Part shown: in pieces, positions 23,198 through 31,125 of the stretch
Numbering within the stretch: the first letter of the stretch is position 1
How the letters are laid out: each line of letters opens with the position of its first letter
DNA from: Chitinophagaceae bacterium
GTDB lineage: Bacteria; Bacteroidota; Bacteroidia; Chitinophagales; Chitinophagaceae
Direction: 5' to 3'
Assembly: GCA_947454235.1 (NCBI GenBank)
Contig: CANGIY010000012.1
Coordinates: 49,112 to 113,111 of the forward strand
Length of the DNA stretch: 64,000 nt
Made by a program: the position numbers and the translations under genes
Notes under the pieces: generated by a model
Seen by the model: the letters and a program-made list of their open reading frames with translations, nothing else
Told to the model about the DNA's origin: nothing
Database searches by the model: none

Positions 23198-23746
23198 TTA
23201 TGGCATTATCACTATTGGAGTGCCCACCTTGCAATGGATGTACAATTCGTCTACTTCATCGTTTTTAAGGGCAATGCAACCCAATGTCCAGTCGGCGGCG
23301 ATTCTTGCCAGCTTTTCCTTGGCCCAGTTATTAGGCAAGCCATGAATTTTCACGTCGCCGCCAGTATGCTTACCTGCCTTGCGGGCAAACTCAATATCGC
23401 GCTTTGAAGGGTATGAGATTCCCAGCGACTTGTGATAGCCGCTACCCGGGTTTTTACCGTCAATATGGTAGGTACCTTCGGGTGTTTTGTTATCGCCCTC
23501 AAAATGTTTTGGACCAACAGGGTGCCCACCCAGACTTATATGATAGGTTTTCAGTAGCCTGCGGTGGCTAAACACTGCCATTTTGCGTTCCTTTTTCCAA
23601 ACAGCTATGCTGTCGATATCGGTTTGTAGGGGTGGCTGTTTGACGATTTTTACGCCCGTACGCGGCCACAACCTACCCCACGATGCCATTGCAACACAAA
23701 GAACTACAATGATGGAGGCGCTTAAAATCACATACTTTTTTTTCAT
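23198..23746 (-). CDS. L,D-transpeptidase (YkuD) family protein
   Basis: LLKTYHISLGGHPVGPKHFEGDNKTPEGTYHI; KIHGLPN ... DWTLGCIALKNDEVDEL active-site motif. Confidence 0.88.
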   Translation of the reverse strand: MKKKYVILSASIIVVLCVAMASWGRLWPRTGVKIVKQPPLQTDIDSIAVWKKERKMAVFSHRRLLKTYHISLGGHPVGPKHFEGDNKTPEGTYHIDGKNPGSGYHKSLGISYPSKRDIEFARKAGKHTGGDVKIHGLPNNWAKEKLARIAADWTLGCIALKNDEVDELYIHCKVGTPIVIMP

Positions 23747-23849
23747 GATGGCTGTTGAAGTAACCGCTACGGTTTTTTAGGAATTGCTTTGCATAAAAAT
23801 ACTGAATTTTGATTGGCTGAATATTTAAAATATTGATAAAAAGCTAAGT

Positions 23850-24006
23850 GAAGATGACAAAATAAATGTCACCATTTCAACCATTCTGTTCCATTTCTGC
23901 GTCGTTGCAAAAGTCCTTATTCCGAATACTTTCGGAACTCGGATTTTGCGCCTAGTAAAAAAGAAACATAATAATTAAACTAGATGAAATTTATTTTGTC
24001 AACTTC
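23850..24006. mobile_element. candidate MITE-like element (157 bp)
   Basis: 24-bp imperfect terminal inverted repeats (21/24; 13-bp perfect core TGACAAAATAAAT/ATTTATTTTGTCA at 23855-23867 and 23989-24001) enclosing an internal long hairpin at 23907-23950. Confidence 0.45.
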
Positions 24007-24014
24007 ATTAACCT

Positions 24015-24437
24015 ATGGAACGCCGCGATTACGTACAAAGACAAATTGACCTGCTGGGGCTTGTATTGGCAAAAATGCTGGCGAAACTCACAGGGGCGCC
24101 CGATAACTTTGACATCAATGAAGTATTCAATCAGCAGGCACCGTTACCCACCGGCACTACCTTGCCGCCGCTCGATGAAATCGTAAACACTCCTACTCAC
24201 TTGCTCGCATCAATGTTAGAATCAAAGTACGGCTTCAAAAATGAACATTTGTGGCAGAATGCCGATATCTTGTTTGCATGTGCCTCAAAAATAGAGCGCA
24301 GTGATGTAGACCGAAGCCAGCTTTTGTATCTGAGAAGCCTGAGCATTTACGAGCACTTACTCACGAGTTCAAAAACATTTGACCTTGGGTTGCTAAAAAA
24401 GGTCAATAACCTGAAAGCAACGCTGATTAATAACTAA
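24015..24437 (+). CDS. hypothetical protein
   Basis: ATG-started 140-aa ORF, non-overlapping, helical. Confidence 0.65.
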   Translation: MERRDYVQRQIDLLGLVLAKMLAKLTGAPDNFDINEVFNQQAPLPTGTTLPPLDEIVNTPTHLLASMLESKYGFKNEHLWQNADILFACASKIERSDVDRSQLLYLRSLSIYEHLLTSSKTFDLGLLKKVNNLKATLINN

Positions 24438-25781: not shown

Positions 25782-27386
25782 ATGAACGAGGTGGAACCAA
25801 AGAAAAAACTTCAAAATGTAAAAAGAACTTTTGAAAATTTGTCAGACGAAGAAAAAAAAACGCTGCAATCGATTATTGATGGGATTGAGAGCCATACTGT
25901 AATTCCTGTTATTGGATATGAATTGTTTGATGACTGTCTTGATTCGACATGCTTTGATACATACTACTCTCCTGATTTACAAAAGTTAAATTATAAAAAT
26001 AACTCGACCAATAAGGCATCTTTTCTTAAATCGTTTGCAGAGAAGTTTATTCTTTCGCACCCTGAAAGGTACTCGAAAAATATTATTGATGAGTTTGCGC
26101 AATTAGATTGTTCGTGTAGTATTGATTATATTAATTTTTGCTACAGGCATTTTGAAAGTGATCAAAAATTTGTGCTGTTCAACAAAAATGTGAATGAAAC
26201 ATTAGAAACGCATTTCAATCTTAGTCGTATCCCTTCATCGATTATTAAGCTTGCAAGAATTGAACTTTTTCGATTTTATATCGATACAACCGTTTTCAGA
26301 ACTCTAGAAGCTGCATTAACTTCATATAGATTAAAAAGGGAAGGCGGGAACATAGTTTATGAAGTGCTTAGTCCTAATCAGATGAAATTTGCTAATGAAA
26401 AAATCATTGATCCTAACTCTAATTCATATGATCCCAGTAAACCAATAAAGAATATAATTCATCCAATAGTTTGGTGTTTTTTTGGTTGTTACGGGTCGGA
26501 GTCCGGGCTAAGCATATCAGACATACACATGCAGGAAGTCTTATACGGATACATTAATAAGCAGCATCAGAAATACTCCGATTTTTTTAATATGCTGGCG
26601 GGAACTTTCAAAGACTGCAATTTTTTGTTTATTGGCTGTTCATTTAAAGACTGGATATTTCGATTCATTTTGCGTTTATTGGCTACTGAAAAATTGGAGG
26701 AAAAGAACCTGAAACGTAAGATAGTTATTGATGATTTACTTCTATTGGATGCTGACAAATCAAGAAATGTCTACATCACAAAAGAGGGATTGCAAAGTCT
26801 TAACTTGTCAGCCAATGATTTTGTCGACATTTTGTATAAACAGCTTGGTCAAAGGCATACTACAAAAGGGAGTTCTTGTCAGATTTTCATTAGTTTTTTT
26901 AGTGAAGATAGAGATATAGCGAGAGAAATACACAGATACATCAGCGTGTCGCTGGGTCTTGACTGTTTTCTGGATGAAAGTGACATTAAAGGAGGAGAGC
27001 CGTTAAACAAATCTATAATGGACGGGATAAATGATTCAATTGTTTTTATTCCTTTGGTATCTGAAAATATTGATATTGCTTTTAGCAGGAAGAGTATTGC
27101 ATTTGCAGAATGGGATTACGCCTTAAAAAGGAGTGAAGAAAATCCCGGCAGCCTTTGCATAATGCCTCTTTTTACCAAAAAATATAATAATAATAAGTTG
27201 TCACTAAATCAGTATCTGCCAGAGTCTGTAGAAAAAAGTTCAAAATTTACCGTGGGGCAAATCGCAAACCCTGGTGGGCCTCTTGGTAGTGTTATTCAGG
27301 ATGAACCATTGCTATTAACAGAATTTTATGCAAATGAACTAAGAATGTATCAAAATAACTGCAGGTTAAAAAATGGAAATTCATAG
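25782..27386 (+). CDS. SIR2-like + C-terminal TIR domain protein (putative conflict-system effector)
   Basis: N-terminal VIPVIGYELFDD; NIIHPIVWCFFGCYGS; FLFIGCSFKDWIFRFILRLL (SIR2-like C-terminal motif); CQIFISFFSEDRDIAREIHRYIS...CFLDESDIKGGEPLNKSIMDGINDSIVFIPLVSENI...AFAEWDYAL (TIR). Confidence 0.75.
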   Translation: MNEVEPKKKLQNVKRTFENLSDEEKKTLQSIIDGIESHTVIPVIGYELFDDCLDSTCFDTYYSPDLQKLNYKNNSTNKASFLKSFAEKFILSHPERYSKNIIDEFAQLDCSCSIDYINFCYRHFESDQKFVLFNKNVNETLETHFNLSRIPSSIIKLARIELFRFYIDTTVFRTLEAALTSYRLKREGGNIVYEVLSPNQMKFANEKIIDPNSNSYDPSKPIKNIIHPIVWCFFGCYGSESGLSISDIHMQEVLYGYINKQHQKYSDFFNMLAGTFKDCNFLFIGCSFKDWIFRFILRLLATEKLEEKNLKRKIVIDDLLLLDADKSRNVYITKEGLQSLNLSANDFVDILYKQLGQRHTTKGSSCQIFISFFSEDRDIAREIHRYISVSLGLDCFLDESDIKGGEPLNKSIMDGINDSIVFIPLVSENIDIAFSRKSIAFAEWDYALKRSEENPGSLCIMPLFTKKYNNNKLSLNQYLPESVEKSSKFTVGQIANPGGPLGSVIQDEPLLLTEFYANELRMYQNNCRLKNGNS

Positions 27387-30300
27387 CAATCCCTTTAAGG
27401 GCCCGGAGTCGTATTCCGTTCAGGATCAAGCCAGTTTTCATGGTAGGGAAAATGATGTATTGAAACTATATAACCTGATTTCAGGAAATACACTAACATT
27501 ATTGTATTCCCAATCGGGGTATGGTAAAAGTTCTGTAATTCAAGCTGGTTTAATAAATACTTTGTCTCAATCATACAATTTTCTACCAATTGTATACACA
27601 CTCCCAGCGCCCGATTGCCAGTTTAGTACTTATCTGGAAAATGATATTATTGGTGCTTTAGATAAGGCAATTGACCAATTGGTTGCGAAGAGCGGAATAA
27701 CCAAAAGAGTGGAAGATGTTAATGCGACAGGTGACGATAATGGTTATACTAATACTTATACCTTTTCAAAGAACATTGAGCCTTGCTTTGATAAGCGGCA
27801 GAAGTCACTATTTGAGTTTTTATACAGCACATCGCTAACCTGTAATATATCAAGGTCAGTTATTAAGGATGGAATAACACGAGACGAGATGACTTCGTTT
27901 CCAATCATTCCTGTAATTATTTTTGATCAGTTTGAGGAATTATTCACTACCCGGTTTTCAGATATCGAATTTTACAATCAAATAACCAATGAGCTGAAAT
28001 ATGTTATTGAAGACGAGATACCTTCGGTAACTATAGCTGATTATAAAAGTAAGAAGAATGCAAATGATGGAACTACGAACCATAGCCTGGACTATTATTT
28101 AGAGATGCAGAATGCTCTTACCTCTTCCCGGAAAAACTTTAGATTTCTATTTTCATTCAGGGAGGAGTATCTTACCAAATTTGAATCGTTAAAAAACAAA
28201 ATACCGTCAATTCTTAACGGACATAACCGTTTTTGCCTTGAACCGTTTAATAAGGTTGACGCTGCCAAAGTAATAAAGAAAATATCTCCGGAAATTAGCA
28301 ATGTACCAGAGTTTGCAGAGTTAATTGTTGATAAGCTGGCGAATATACCTGACAATAAGGGAAATGTAGAAGTAGAACCATTTGTTTTAAGCCTATTTTG
28401 TTTTTTTATATATGAAGATATAATTTTAAAATATGAGGTAAGAAGAGGAAATTCAACAGAAGAAAACGTACTGATTTGGAAACAATTATTTATTGATGAA
28501 TACCAACTATTGCTAACCAAAGTAGGCGGAAAAGACGATATTATTGAAGATATTTCGAATAAATATTTCCTGAGCGTATTTAATCATTTTTCAAATGAGG
28601 TAAAGGATGCCATTGCAGATCACCTTATTTCAAAAGATTATGATACAGGTATATATGGGAGAAAACTCGCTTTAAAGAAAGAGCTACTTGCTGACAGAAG
28701 GCTTGGAAGTAATATTATCGAGAAACTTCTGGGGCAAAAACAAATTTTTGAAAATAAGAAACTCCGATATCTTAAGCCTGAGTCATTTGTGAATGATGAA
28801 TACATTCGGGTAATTCATGATAAGTTGGTGGATCCGTTAATAGTTGTAAAAAAGGAAAGAGAAGAAGCGGTTAAAAGAGATGCAACCAATAAGATTCTAG
28901 ATCAAGAAAAAGCAAAAAGAGTTAAACGAAGATATAAACTTATTCTTTCACTTTTTATAGTATTCGTTGTCTTTTTTTCAGGGGCTTTTTATCTTCAGGC
29001 GCTACTAAATATTCAGTATAACGCGATTGGCGGCGCAGAAATCACGAGGGGGTATAATCCTACGTTAGCATATACCTTGGTTAAGGATGCAAAGAGTATC
29101 TTTCCGTTTAATCAAAATATTAACAATGTTCTTTTTTCATTCGACACATCGGACGATGCGTTTATTGTTTCGCGAATTAGCCTGCCAGATGAAATTTGTG
29201 CGGTTTCGCTATCTGCTACAGGAGATAGCATTACAACTTATGGATTTTCAGGAATTTATGACTGGGACAGTGGAGGAAATTTAATTAGCTGGAAACCATC
29301 GCCAATGGGGACTCTTCGTAACTACGGAAAGGTAAATGGAAAACTCTGCTACCTTCTCGATAGAAATGGATCCGACACCTGCGAAATGCTCAATATTAAT
29401 GGGGAAGTAATCAGGAAATTTAAGGAGTACAAAGAAACTGATCATATGTCCTTTTCCCCGGATGGCAAAAATGTGTTAGTAGGAAATTTGCTTTATCACC
29501 TGGGTGATACGACAAATAAACCGGATACACTAATACCGCCAAATGCCGATAAGGGTTGGCTGTGTTCTGGTTTTTGCCCCGACAATATGCACTGCTATGC
29601 CGGATTTTGGGACGGCTCTTTGCTTATGTACAATTCCAAAAATGGTAAAGTAATTAAGTGGTTTAAGGGCATAGAAAATTCTGTTGTATCGGCTGTAACT
29701 TTTACTAATGACATGAAATTTTTGATAACAGGAGATCATGAAAATAATGTCAAAATATGGGAAATTGGAACGTTGGCAGATTCTCTCTGTAGTCAAAAGG
29801 ATGAAAAAAGATTACAGTGTGTACAGGACAATGCAACGTATCTGCCAAAAGTATATTTGCATGGGCATAACGGCTATGTTACAAGTCTCGCCACAATTGG
29901 TGATTCCGTTATTTTAAGCGGCAGTGATGATAAAAATGTTGTATTGTGGAATTTTAAAGGAGACAAGTTAGTGAACTTTAAAGGCAGTGATTGCGAAATA
30001 AAGTCTGTCGGTTTTTCTCCTGACAAAAAGACGGTTTATGCTGTAAATGCTGACAATAAATTATTCCTCTGGAAGACAGGGGCGGCATCAAAGATATTTG
30101 CTGACAGGCCCGCCTTTCGTTTTTCTCCATTGGATTATACATATGTTGGCCTTTCTCCTAATAAGGAGCCCGATAATATAGATACTTCCTCGTTGACATC
30201 ACAAGTAAATGGGATATTGCATTTGCAATCAAGCCTACCTGCAATCAATCGTCAATTGTTGAATAACCATTATTCTGCTGAATTAAAAAAGGAGATTTCT

Positions 30301-31125
30301 CATTTAAAGCAACTGTATCAACGCCTTTTTCGTGATCAGAAATTAGGCAAAAATGGCAATGTTTCTCTTAGCACAAATTTGCTTCTCAGGCGACTATACG
30401 GAAAACTGATAGAGGATGAGCCTGAATTAATATCAGAAAAATATGGTTATAATGATTCCATTCCTCATACAAATTTGGTTAACCATTTGTACAAAAAACT
30501 ATATTACCAAATTTCGCGTAAAGATTCTTTGACAGCTGAAATCTTATTCAAAGATACTTTGGATATCTACGATGTTTTGCGGTATTGTGACGAAATGGAA
30601 ACTATGGCTGCGTTTTACAGTGATACCGGGTATTCAACAATTGCCATTAATTACATAAAGAAGAGTTTGCAATTAAAAGAAAAGTTTGCACACAAATATC
30701 CCAATCATGCAAAAATAAGGTCTACTATTGGAGACTCGTATCTAAAGTTATTTCTTCTTTATATTGAAACTGACAGCATTGCCGCAGCTACCAGGTGTTC
30801 AGCAAATTATATAAAATATAAGCATAATTCTTTGCGCGAGCAAGATGCTGATTTTTTAGAGAACTACTTCAGGATATTTTTTGCACTATTTGAAGAAGGA
30901 GAGGGTACTGCCAAAGCTGAATTCTTAAAAGTAAAAGATCAAAAACTTCGAAAAAGTGTTTTGTCGATTTGTTATAAAGACTACATTATTGATATGTTAA
31001 CGACAAAAGCAAATAGCCGCAAGCATTTTCCGGCTTATCAAAAGAAAAGGGTTGAAAACTTTATTTCGTTTTTAAAGCGGCAACCTTGCGCAACGTGGCA
31101 ACAAAAATCGATCTATGACCGATAA
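27373..31125 (+). CDS. nSTAND-type NTPase with single TM segment, WD40 repeats and C-terminal helical (TPR-like) region
   Basis: NPFKGPESYSVQDQASFHGRENDVLKL; Walker A region LYSQSGYGKSSVIQAGL; Walker B IPVIIFDQFEELFT; TM YKLILSLFIVFVVFFSGAFYL; WD40 blades (VYLHGHNGYVTSLATIGDSVILSGSDDKNVVLWNF). Confidence 0.85.
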   Translation: MEIHSNPFKGPESYSVQDQASFHGRENDVLKLYNLISGNTLTLLYSQSGYGKSSVIQAGLINTLSQSYNFLPIVYTLPAPDCQFSTYLENDIIGALDKAIDQLVAKSGITKRVEDVNATGDDNGYTNTYTFSKNIEPCFDKRQKSLFEFLYSTSLTCNISRSVIKDGITRDEMTSFPIIPVIIFDQFEELFTTRFSDIEFYNQITNELKYVIEDEIPSVTIADYKSKKNANDGTTNHSLDYYLEMQNALTSSRKNFRFLFSFREEYLTKFESLKNKIPSILNGHNRFCLEPFNKVDAAKVIKKISPEISNVPEFAELIVDKLANIPDNKGNVEVEPFVLSLFCFFIYEDIILKYEVRRGNSTEENVLIWKQLFIDEYQLLLTKVGGKDDIIEDISNKYFLSVFNHFSNEVKDAIADHLISKDYDTGIYGRKLALKKELLADRRLGSNIIEKLLGQKQIFENKKLRYLKPESFVNDEYIRVIHDKLVDPLIVVKKEREEAVKRDATNKILDQEKAKRVKRRYKLILSLFIVFVVFFSGAFYLQALLNIQYNAIGGAEITRGYNPTLAYTLVKDAKSIFPFNQNINNVLFSFDTSDDAFIVSRISLPDEICAVSLSATGDSITTYGFSGIYDWDSGGNLISWKPSPMGTLRNYGKVNGKLCYLLDRNGSDTCEMLNINGEVIRKFKEYKETDHMSFSPDGKNVLVGNLLYHLGDTTNKPDTLIPPNADKGWLCSGFCPDNMHCYAGFWDGSLLMYNSKNGKVIKWFKGIENSVVSAVTFTNDMKFLITGDHENNVKIWEIGTLADSLCSQKDEKRLQCVQDNATYLPKVYLHGHNGYVTSLATIGDSVILSGSDDKNVVLWNFKGDKLVNFKGSDCEIKSVGFSPDKKTVYAVNADNKLFLWKTGAASKIFADRPAFRFSPLDYTYVGLSPNKEPDNIDTSSLTSQVNGILHLQSSLPAINRQLLNNHYSAELKKEISHLKQLYQRLFRDQKLGKNGNVSLSTNLLLRRLYGKLIEDEPELISEKYGYNDSIPHTNLVNHLYKKLYYQISRKDSLTAEILFKDTLDIYDVLRYCDEMETMAAFYSDTGYSTIAINYIKKSLQLKEKFAHKYPNHAKIRSTIGDSYLKLFLLYIETDSIAAATRCSANYIKYKHNSLREQDADFLENYFRIFFALFEEGEGTAKAEFLKVKDQKLRKSVLSICYKDYIIDMLTTKANSRKHFPAYQKKRVENFISFLKRQPCATWQQKSIYDR

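Follow-up and report, generated by a model that had tools for sequence, protein, structure and literature searches.

The DNA just upstream of the ATG at position 24015 of the window (the whole 64,000-nt stretch that was analyzed) carries a palindromic element, and we asked whether this is a mobile element or a regulatory feature of the gene that follows. The original prediction described a MITE-like element of 157 bp with 24-bp terminal inverted repeats (TIRs) and an internal hairpin. Direct inspection confirmed its arms, since 23850-23873 and 23983-24006 are complementary at 21 of 24 positions and their core, TGACAAAATAAAT, is perfect over 13 bp. The inner hairpin, GCAAAAGTCCTTATTCCGAATACTTTCGGAACTCGGATTTTGC on the plus strand, is also present, spanning 23907-23949 rather than ending at 23950. 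The TIRs are real, but alignment of the copies with their flanks moved both ends of the MITE 2 bp further out, to 23848 and 24008 (161 bp, GTGAAG...CTTCAT), and lengthened the TIRs to ~28 bp. Direct TAA repeats adjoin both ends (23845-23847 and 24009-24011), and the gap to the ATG is 6 nt (the duplicated TAA plus CCT) instead of the 8 nt given before. The palindromic fold of the 161-nt element is far beyond chance: its MFE as single-strand DNA was -25.4 kcal/mol, whereas shuffled sequences averaged -12.1 (z = -4.7) and 0 of 200 of them did as well. The features of the locus are as follows.

23198-23746, minus strand: L,D-transpeptidase (YkuD) gene, the divergent neighbor (PF03734, E 3e-18); its start is 101 bp left of the element
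23845-23847, no strand: target-site duplication, left copy, TAA, equal to 24009-24011
23848-24008, plus strand: complete copy of the MITE, 161 bp, oriented by the CATTTCTGCGTCGTTGC core, with ends taken from aligned copies whose flanks are unrelated
23848-23875, plus strand: left TIR, GTGAAGATGACAAAATAAATGTCACCAT, pairing with 23981-24008 and kept in the 18 family 1 copies
23884-23907, plus strand: conserved internal motif TTCTGTTCCATTTCTGCGTCGTTG, common to the sister family and the congeneric elements (alignment A1)
23907-23949, plus strand: inner hairpin, read directly from the sequence; the copies keep its pairing
23920-23937, plus strand: exchangeable hairpin tip TTCCGAATACTTTCGGAA, replaced by AATAGYYCACTATT in other copies; each family of the genome includes copies with either tip
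23981-24008, minus strand: right TIR, on the same basis as the left (direct sequence and alignment)
24009-24011, no strand: target-site duplication, right copy, TAA, from the flank comparison of the genome copies
24015-24437, plus strand: neighboring ORF of 140 aa, of uncertain gene status, beginning 6 nt after the element and without a Pfam match

The internal motif TTCTGTTCCATTTCTGCGTCGTTG occurs once within the 64-kb window, and the search for copies was made in the whole assembly of the own genome (4.17 Mb, 47 contigs). BLAST with the element returned 35 matches, some of which are one copy hit on both strands because of its near-palindromic sequence. A search by TIR pattern identified 18 full-length copies with GTGAAGWTGACAAAATAAAT ends (family 1) and 15 with GGAACGWTGANNAAATAAAGT ends, the latter forming a sister family (family 2) that shares the palindromic core. 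In total there were at least 33 full-length copies, 157-161 bp long and without coding capacity, together with one truncated family 2 copy on contig C37 and two solo TIR ends (C2:219907 and C15:51942). Mean identity was 0.91 within family 1, 0.89 within family 2 and 0.68 between them. The most similar pair of copies was 98.7% identical and no two were the same, indicating that the amplification was not very recent. Alignment of the copies stops abruptly at GTGAAG on one side and CTTCAC on the other, with unrelated flanks beyond, so that the comparison with the genome gave the multicopy pattern with variable flanks that had been proposed as support for a MITE. When ORFs were defined by length alone, 30 of the 33 copies were clear of any ORF of at least 100 aa, and the neighbors were arranged in tandem for 18 copies, divergently for 9 and convergently for 6.

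Identical 3-bp flanks were found in 26 of the 33 full-length copies (TAA/TAA 15, TTA/TTA 10, CTA/CTA 1); shuffling of the right flanks gave a mean of 12.5, and 0 of 200,000 permutations were as high as 26. TAA and TTA were strongly concordant between the two sides (15 TAA/TAA, 10 TTA/TTA and a single discordant TTA/TAA; Fisher P = 2e-6), and so the matching flanks stem from duplication of TWA rather than from a palindromic extension of the ends. The commonest base before the site was C and after it G, each in 14 of 33 copies. The target is C|TWA|G, of which the central 3 bp are duplicated, and TWA duplications also flank the elements of congeneric genomes.

Element-free orthologous sites, which had been suggested as a further check, are present in relatives. 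Using one chimeric protein query for the orthologues of six neighboring genes across the genus, we found that in six congeneric genomes the 318-aa gene still follows sucD directly, with no element in between, and that two relatives keep both neighbors of the prfC locus without an element; this proof is at the level of synteny, as the intergenic sequences are too different for a close alignment. In the own genome, the copy at sucD separates the start codon from a promoter-like motif (TTGGCA...TTATTG) that the relatives conserve, and it would be transcribed as a 5' UTR if that motif is the promoter. A promoter-like motif, TTGGCAYNNTTATTGRA, which resembles a -24/-12 sigma-54 site, precedes the 318-aa gene downstream of sucD in seven congeneric genomes (L023, L156, L158-L162). 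Many copies with variable flanks, the 3-bp target duplication and the element-free sites together bear out the MITE reading, and we conclude with high confidence that the element belongs to a family of non-autonomous DNA transposons (MITEs).

To characterize the interior we used an alignment of 51 elements (A1). The TIRs were conserved along with the internal motifs CATTTCTGC-TCGTTG-AAAAGTC ... GATTTT-CGCCT-GCA-AAAAGA, and these motifs stay conserved between genomes whose TIRs differ. This counts against a plain MITE, whose interior should drift. The two halves pair along the entire element, in 95.8% of cells versus 84.8% in shuffles, where cells count sequences and not events. Fifteen pairs had changed on both sides, some of them inside the core (67-111, 44-130, 39-138, 75-104). 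Arm-to-arm covariation within a family was weak (permutation 38/5000 and 94/5000), and therefore a few family-level double changes make up most of the covariation. Mismatches in the paired arms comprised 46 G.T and 37 A.C, or 27 and 36 when one column fixed in family 1 was removed. Selection for an RNA fold should leave more G.U than A.C, whereas G.T and A.C had similar frequencies here; the pairing therefore appears to be constrained at the level of DNA, perhaps through TIR recognition or hairpin repair.

The hairpin tip was either TTCCGAATRCTTTCGGAA or AATAGYYCACTATT, and each occurred in both families of the own genome with the family-specific flanks kept. A third tip, ATCCCGCCCTTCAGCGGGAT, was present in congeneric genome G001, and longer tip inserts were seen in congeneric genome G009. 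In G001 this nested tip hairpin occurs in both orientations in otherwise similar contexts (L045, L146-L148, L150, L151), which suggests stem-loop inversion. Many solo TIR ends, in which the element breaks off immediately past the TIR or at the hairpin tip, were also seen (L197, L200, L210, L214-L217, L220, L227 and L228, in G001, G003, G004, G005 and G009), and a gene often starts a short way inward of them; they are common in G001 and G003 and rare (two) in the own genome. At G009:C38:10415-11017 (L136:1016-1618), two inverted half-copies surround a cold-shock-protein-like gene, a possible composite.

The position of the element, between divergent genes and 6 nt upstream of an ATG, would suit a cis-regulatory RNA or operator of the 24015 gene or of the divergent L,D-transpeptidase gene. 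We consider this reading very improbable, because at least 33 full-length copies stand beside unrelated genes, the 24015 ORF had no homologue in ten congeneric genomes and the A.C mismatches do not favor selection on an RNA fold. The single copy tied to the 24015 gene that was named as the outcome speaking against a MITE is thus not what the genome contains. The sole Rfam match, to MIR7993, scored far under the gathering score (30.6 vs 100), and we rejected this RNA family as a sub-threshold miRNA match that probably arises from the palindromy. As the primary identity of the element, cis-regulatory RNA was refuted, as conservation with one gene and RNA-level covariation were both lacking. The suggestion that the element carries the promoter or RBS of the 24015 ORF was likewise unsupported: the canonical Bacteroidota -7 box, TANNTTTG, was absent from both strands of 23701-24030, and the ORF has no Pfam match. 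Any effects of the MITE on neighboring genes are probably incidental, and its palindromic core is probably passive cargo or a structure related to transposition, and not an RNA that regulates the 24015 gene. Further along the window (25782-31125), adjacent genes encode a protein with SIR2-like and TIR domains (PF13289, PF13676), weakly matched to ThsA by PADLOC, and a 1250-aa nSTAND1-WD40 protein, possibly an anti-phage defense pair.

The original prediction also proposed looking for a transposase with matching ends, and none was found in the own genome or ten congeneric genomes. All matching TIRs of the own genome either form pairs that bound 157-161 bp or are solo ends, with no autonomous element, and none of them lies at a contig end, where a collapsed multicopy IS would show. 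Forty unpaired TIRs in the relatives, read up to 3 kb inward, had partners only at MITE length, with several stretches ended by short contigs. Across these 11 draft assemblies, no autonomous element with these TIRs was seen. A 603-bp TIR pair in G009 was rejected as an IS, as it encloses the cold-shock-like gene between the half-copies and no transposase. PF13340 had no match in the own genome, and PF01609 matched a single degenerate fragment whose TIRs are different from those of the MITE. PF01609 transposases, matched in six genomes of the genus (one match being this fragment), were rejected as the partner since their ends differ from the MITE TIRs. Inserted directly beside a family 2 copy is the degenerate remnant of an IS5-like transposase, whose ends are GTCGACCCTCAAAAA/TTTTTGAGGGACGAC (L125:1669-3003, G000:C2).

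A parental transposase with the same ends is usual for MITEs, although it is not a defining requirement. As no parental element with these TIRs was found, it is the target duplication that points to the class of enzyme. In IS5-family insertion sequences with 3-bp targets, the target has the form TNA. The IS1031 group of that family has a 3-bp insertion site (PMC2516522), eukaryotic PIF/Harbinger elements duplicate TWA and NuwaII of the PHIS superfamily targets C|TNA|G (PMC4482050). On these grounds the mobilizing enzyme was probably, though by no means certainly, a DDE transposase of the IS5/PIF-Harbinger type. Such an enzyme would recognize both TIRs and move the MITE in trans, and it may since have been lost or may be unassembled in the own genome. 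Of the two marks of an IS5/IS1031-type or PIF-Harbinger element, the 3-bp TNA/TWA duplication was found and a cognate DDE transposase was not; we therefore do not file the MITE as a member of IS5/PIF-Harbinger.

Two IS200/RAYT-like Y1 transposase genes, of 184 aa each, are present in the own genome, so the element could in principle be a REP/BIME-type palindrome spread by them, and a CGTC just 5' of the inner hairpin recalls CGTC-tagged REPs (PMC3733652). This CGTC is not conserved, being CTTC, CATC or CTTT in relatives, and the hairpin core occurs in the own genome only within TIR-bounded copies or the one truncated copy. A DDE enzyme fits the 3-bp duplication; Y1 enzymes are not known to produce target duplications. 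The surroundings of the Y1 genes (L052, G000:C5:154359-154562; L053, G000:C35:2069-2314) each hold palindromic repeats of their own, namely a 43-nt CCGGGTCAGGAGACCCG... in alternating orientation and a 52-nt inverted pair CCTGGTCGAAGCGTCTCGCTTCG..., and resemble REPtron/TIRtron-like systems. Because these repeats are unrelated to the MITE, RAYT was rejected as its partner, and we give the REP/BIME explanation scant credence.

A different explanation is that the genus has kept a stand-alone, domesticated transposase without TIRs that runs the MITE-like family as RAYTs run REPs, the core being part of the recognition signal. A genus-wide family for which no TIR-flanked transposase was found would agree with this, as would a core that is conserved across genomes despite differing TIRs and that also carries paired changes. 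Searches yielded no candidate enzyme, however, the two Y1/RAYT-like genes being flanked by their own unrelated repeats, and plain loss of the autonomous IS accounts for the same facts. We thus regard a host-fixed DDE analogue of RAYT/REP, with the internal hairpin and TIRs as the substrate of a genus-specific family, as an unlikely arrangement. If true, it would explain the conserved core with diverging TIRs and the swapping of tips as intact palindromes.

The MITE family is restricted to one genus. BLAST identified related elements in 7 of 10 congeneric genomes and none in 50 genomes outside the genus, and searches of plasmids, phages and viral contigs gave no element. Among GTDB R220 contigs, the exact core motif was found once, in the MAG uncultured Bacteroidetes Umea_bin-01667. 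This MITE superfamily of one Bacteroidota genus has apparently not been described before. Its target, C|TWA|G, is precise, its subfamilies combine one core with different TIRs, and sites free of the element are available as references. Its copies form a natural hairpin set for studying the maintenance of long palindromes and the exchange of hairpin tips in bacteria, and the family can serve to test whether orphan MITEs rely on lost or host-fixed transposases. It also cautions annotators that a hairpin close to a gene start, as before 24015, can be an inserted transposon instead of an element of the riboswitch kind.

Like other bacterial MITEs (RUP, NEMIS/Correia, ERIC, Nezha and MITECca01 of Cardinium), the element is short, AT-rich, TIR-bounded, without an ORF, multicopy, mostly intergenic and flanked by a duplicated target. 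It differs from them in sequence, in being palindromic throughout and in having hairpin tips that can be exchanged. MITECca01, another Bacteroidota MITE, shares its TIRs with a resident IS982 element (PMC9769881); for our MITE, the searches found no parental IS. This lack, and a conserved, end-to-end palindromic interior common to subfamilies with different TIRs, are the less usual traits. The IS1031 group is alike in its 3-bp target and unlike in that our MITE has no transposase and the genome has no PF13340 match and, for PF01609, just a single degenerate fragment whose TIRs are different. With PIF/Harbinger, NuwaII and their MITEs the likeness is in the target only, our MITE being bacterial and without a transposase to compare. 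REP/RAYT and TIRYT systems (PMC3733652) are also palindromic, dispersed, intergenic repeats, and RAYT-like genes occur in this genome too; unlike those systems, the MITE has a true target duplication and is unrelated to the repeats of the Y1 genes.
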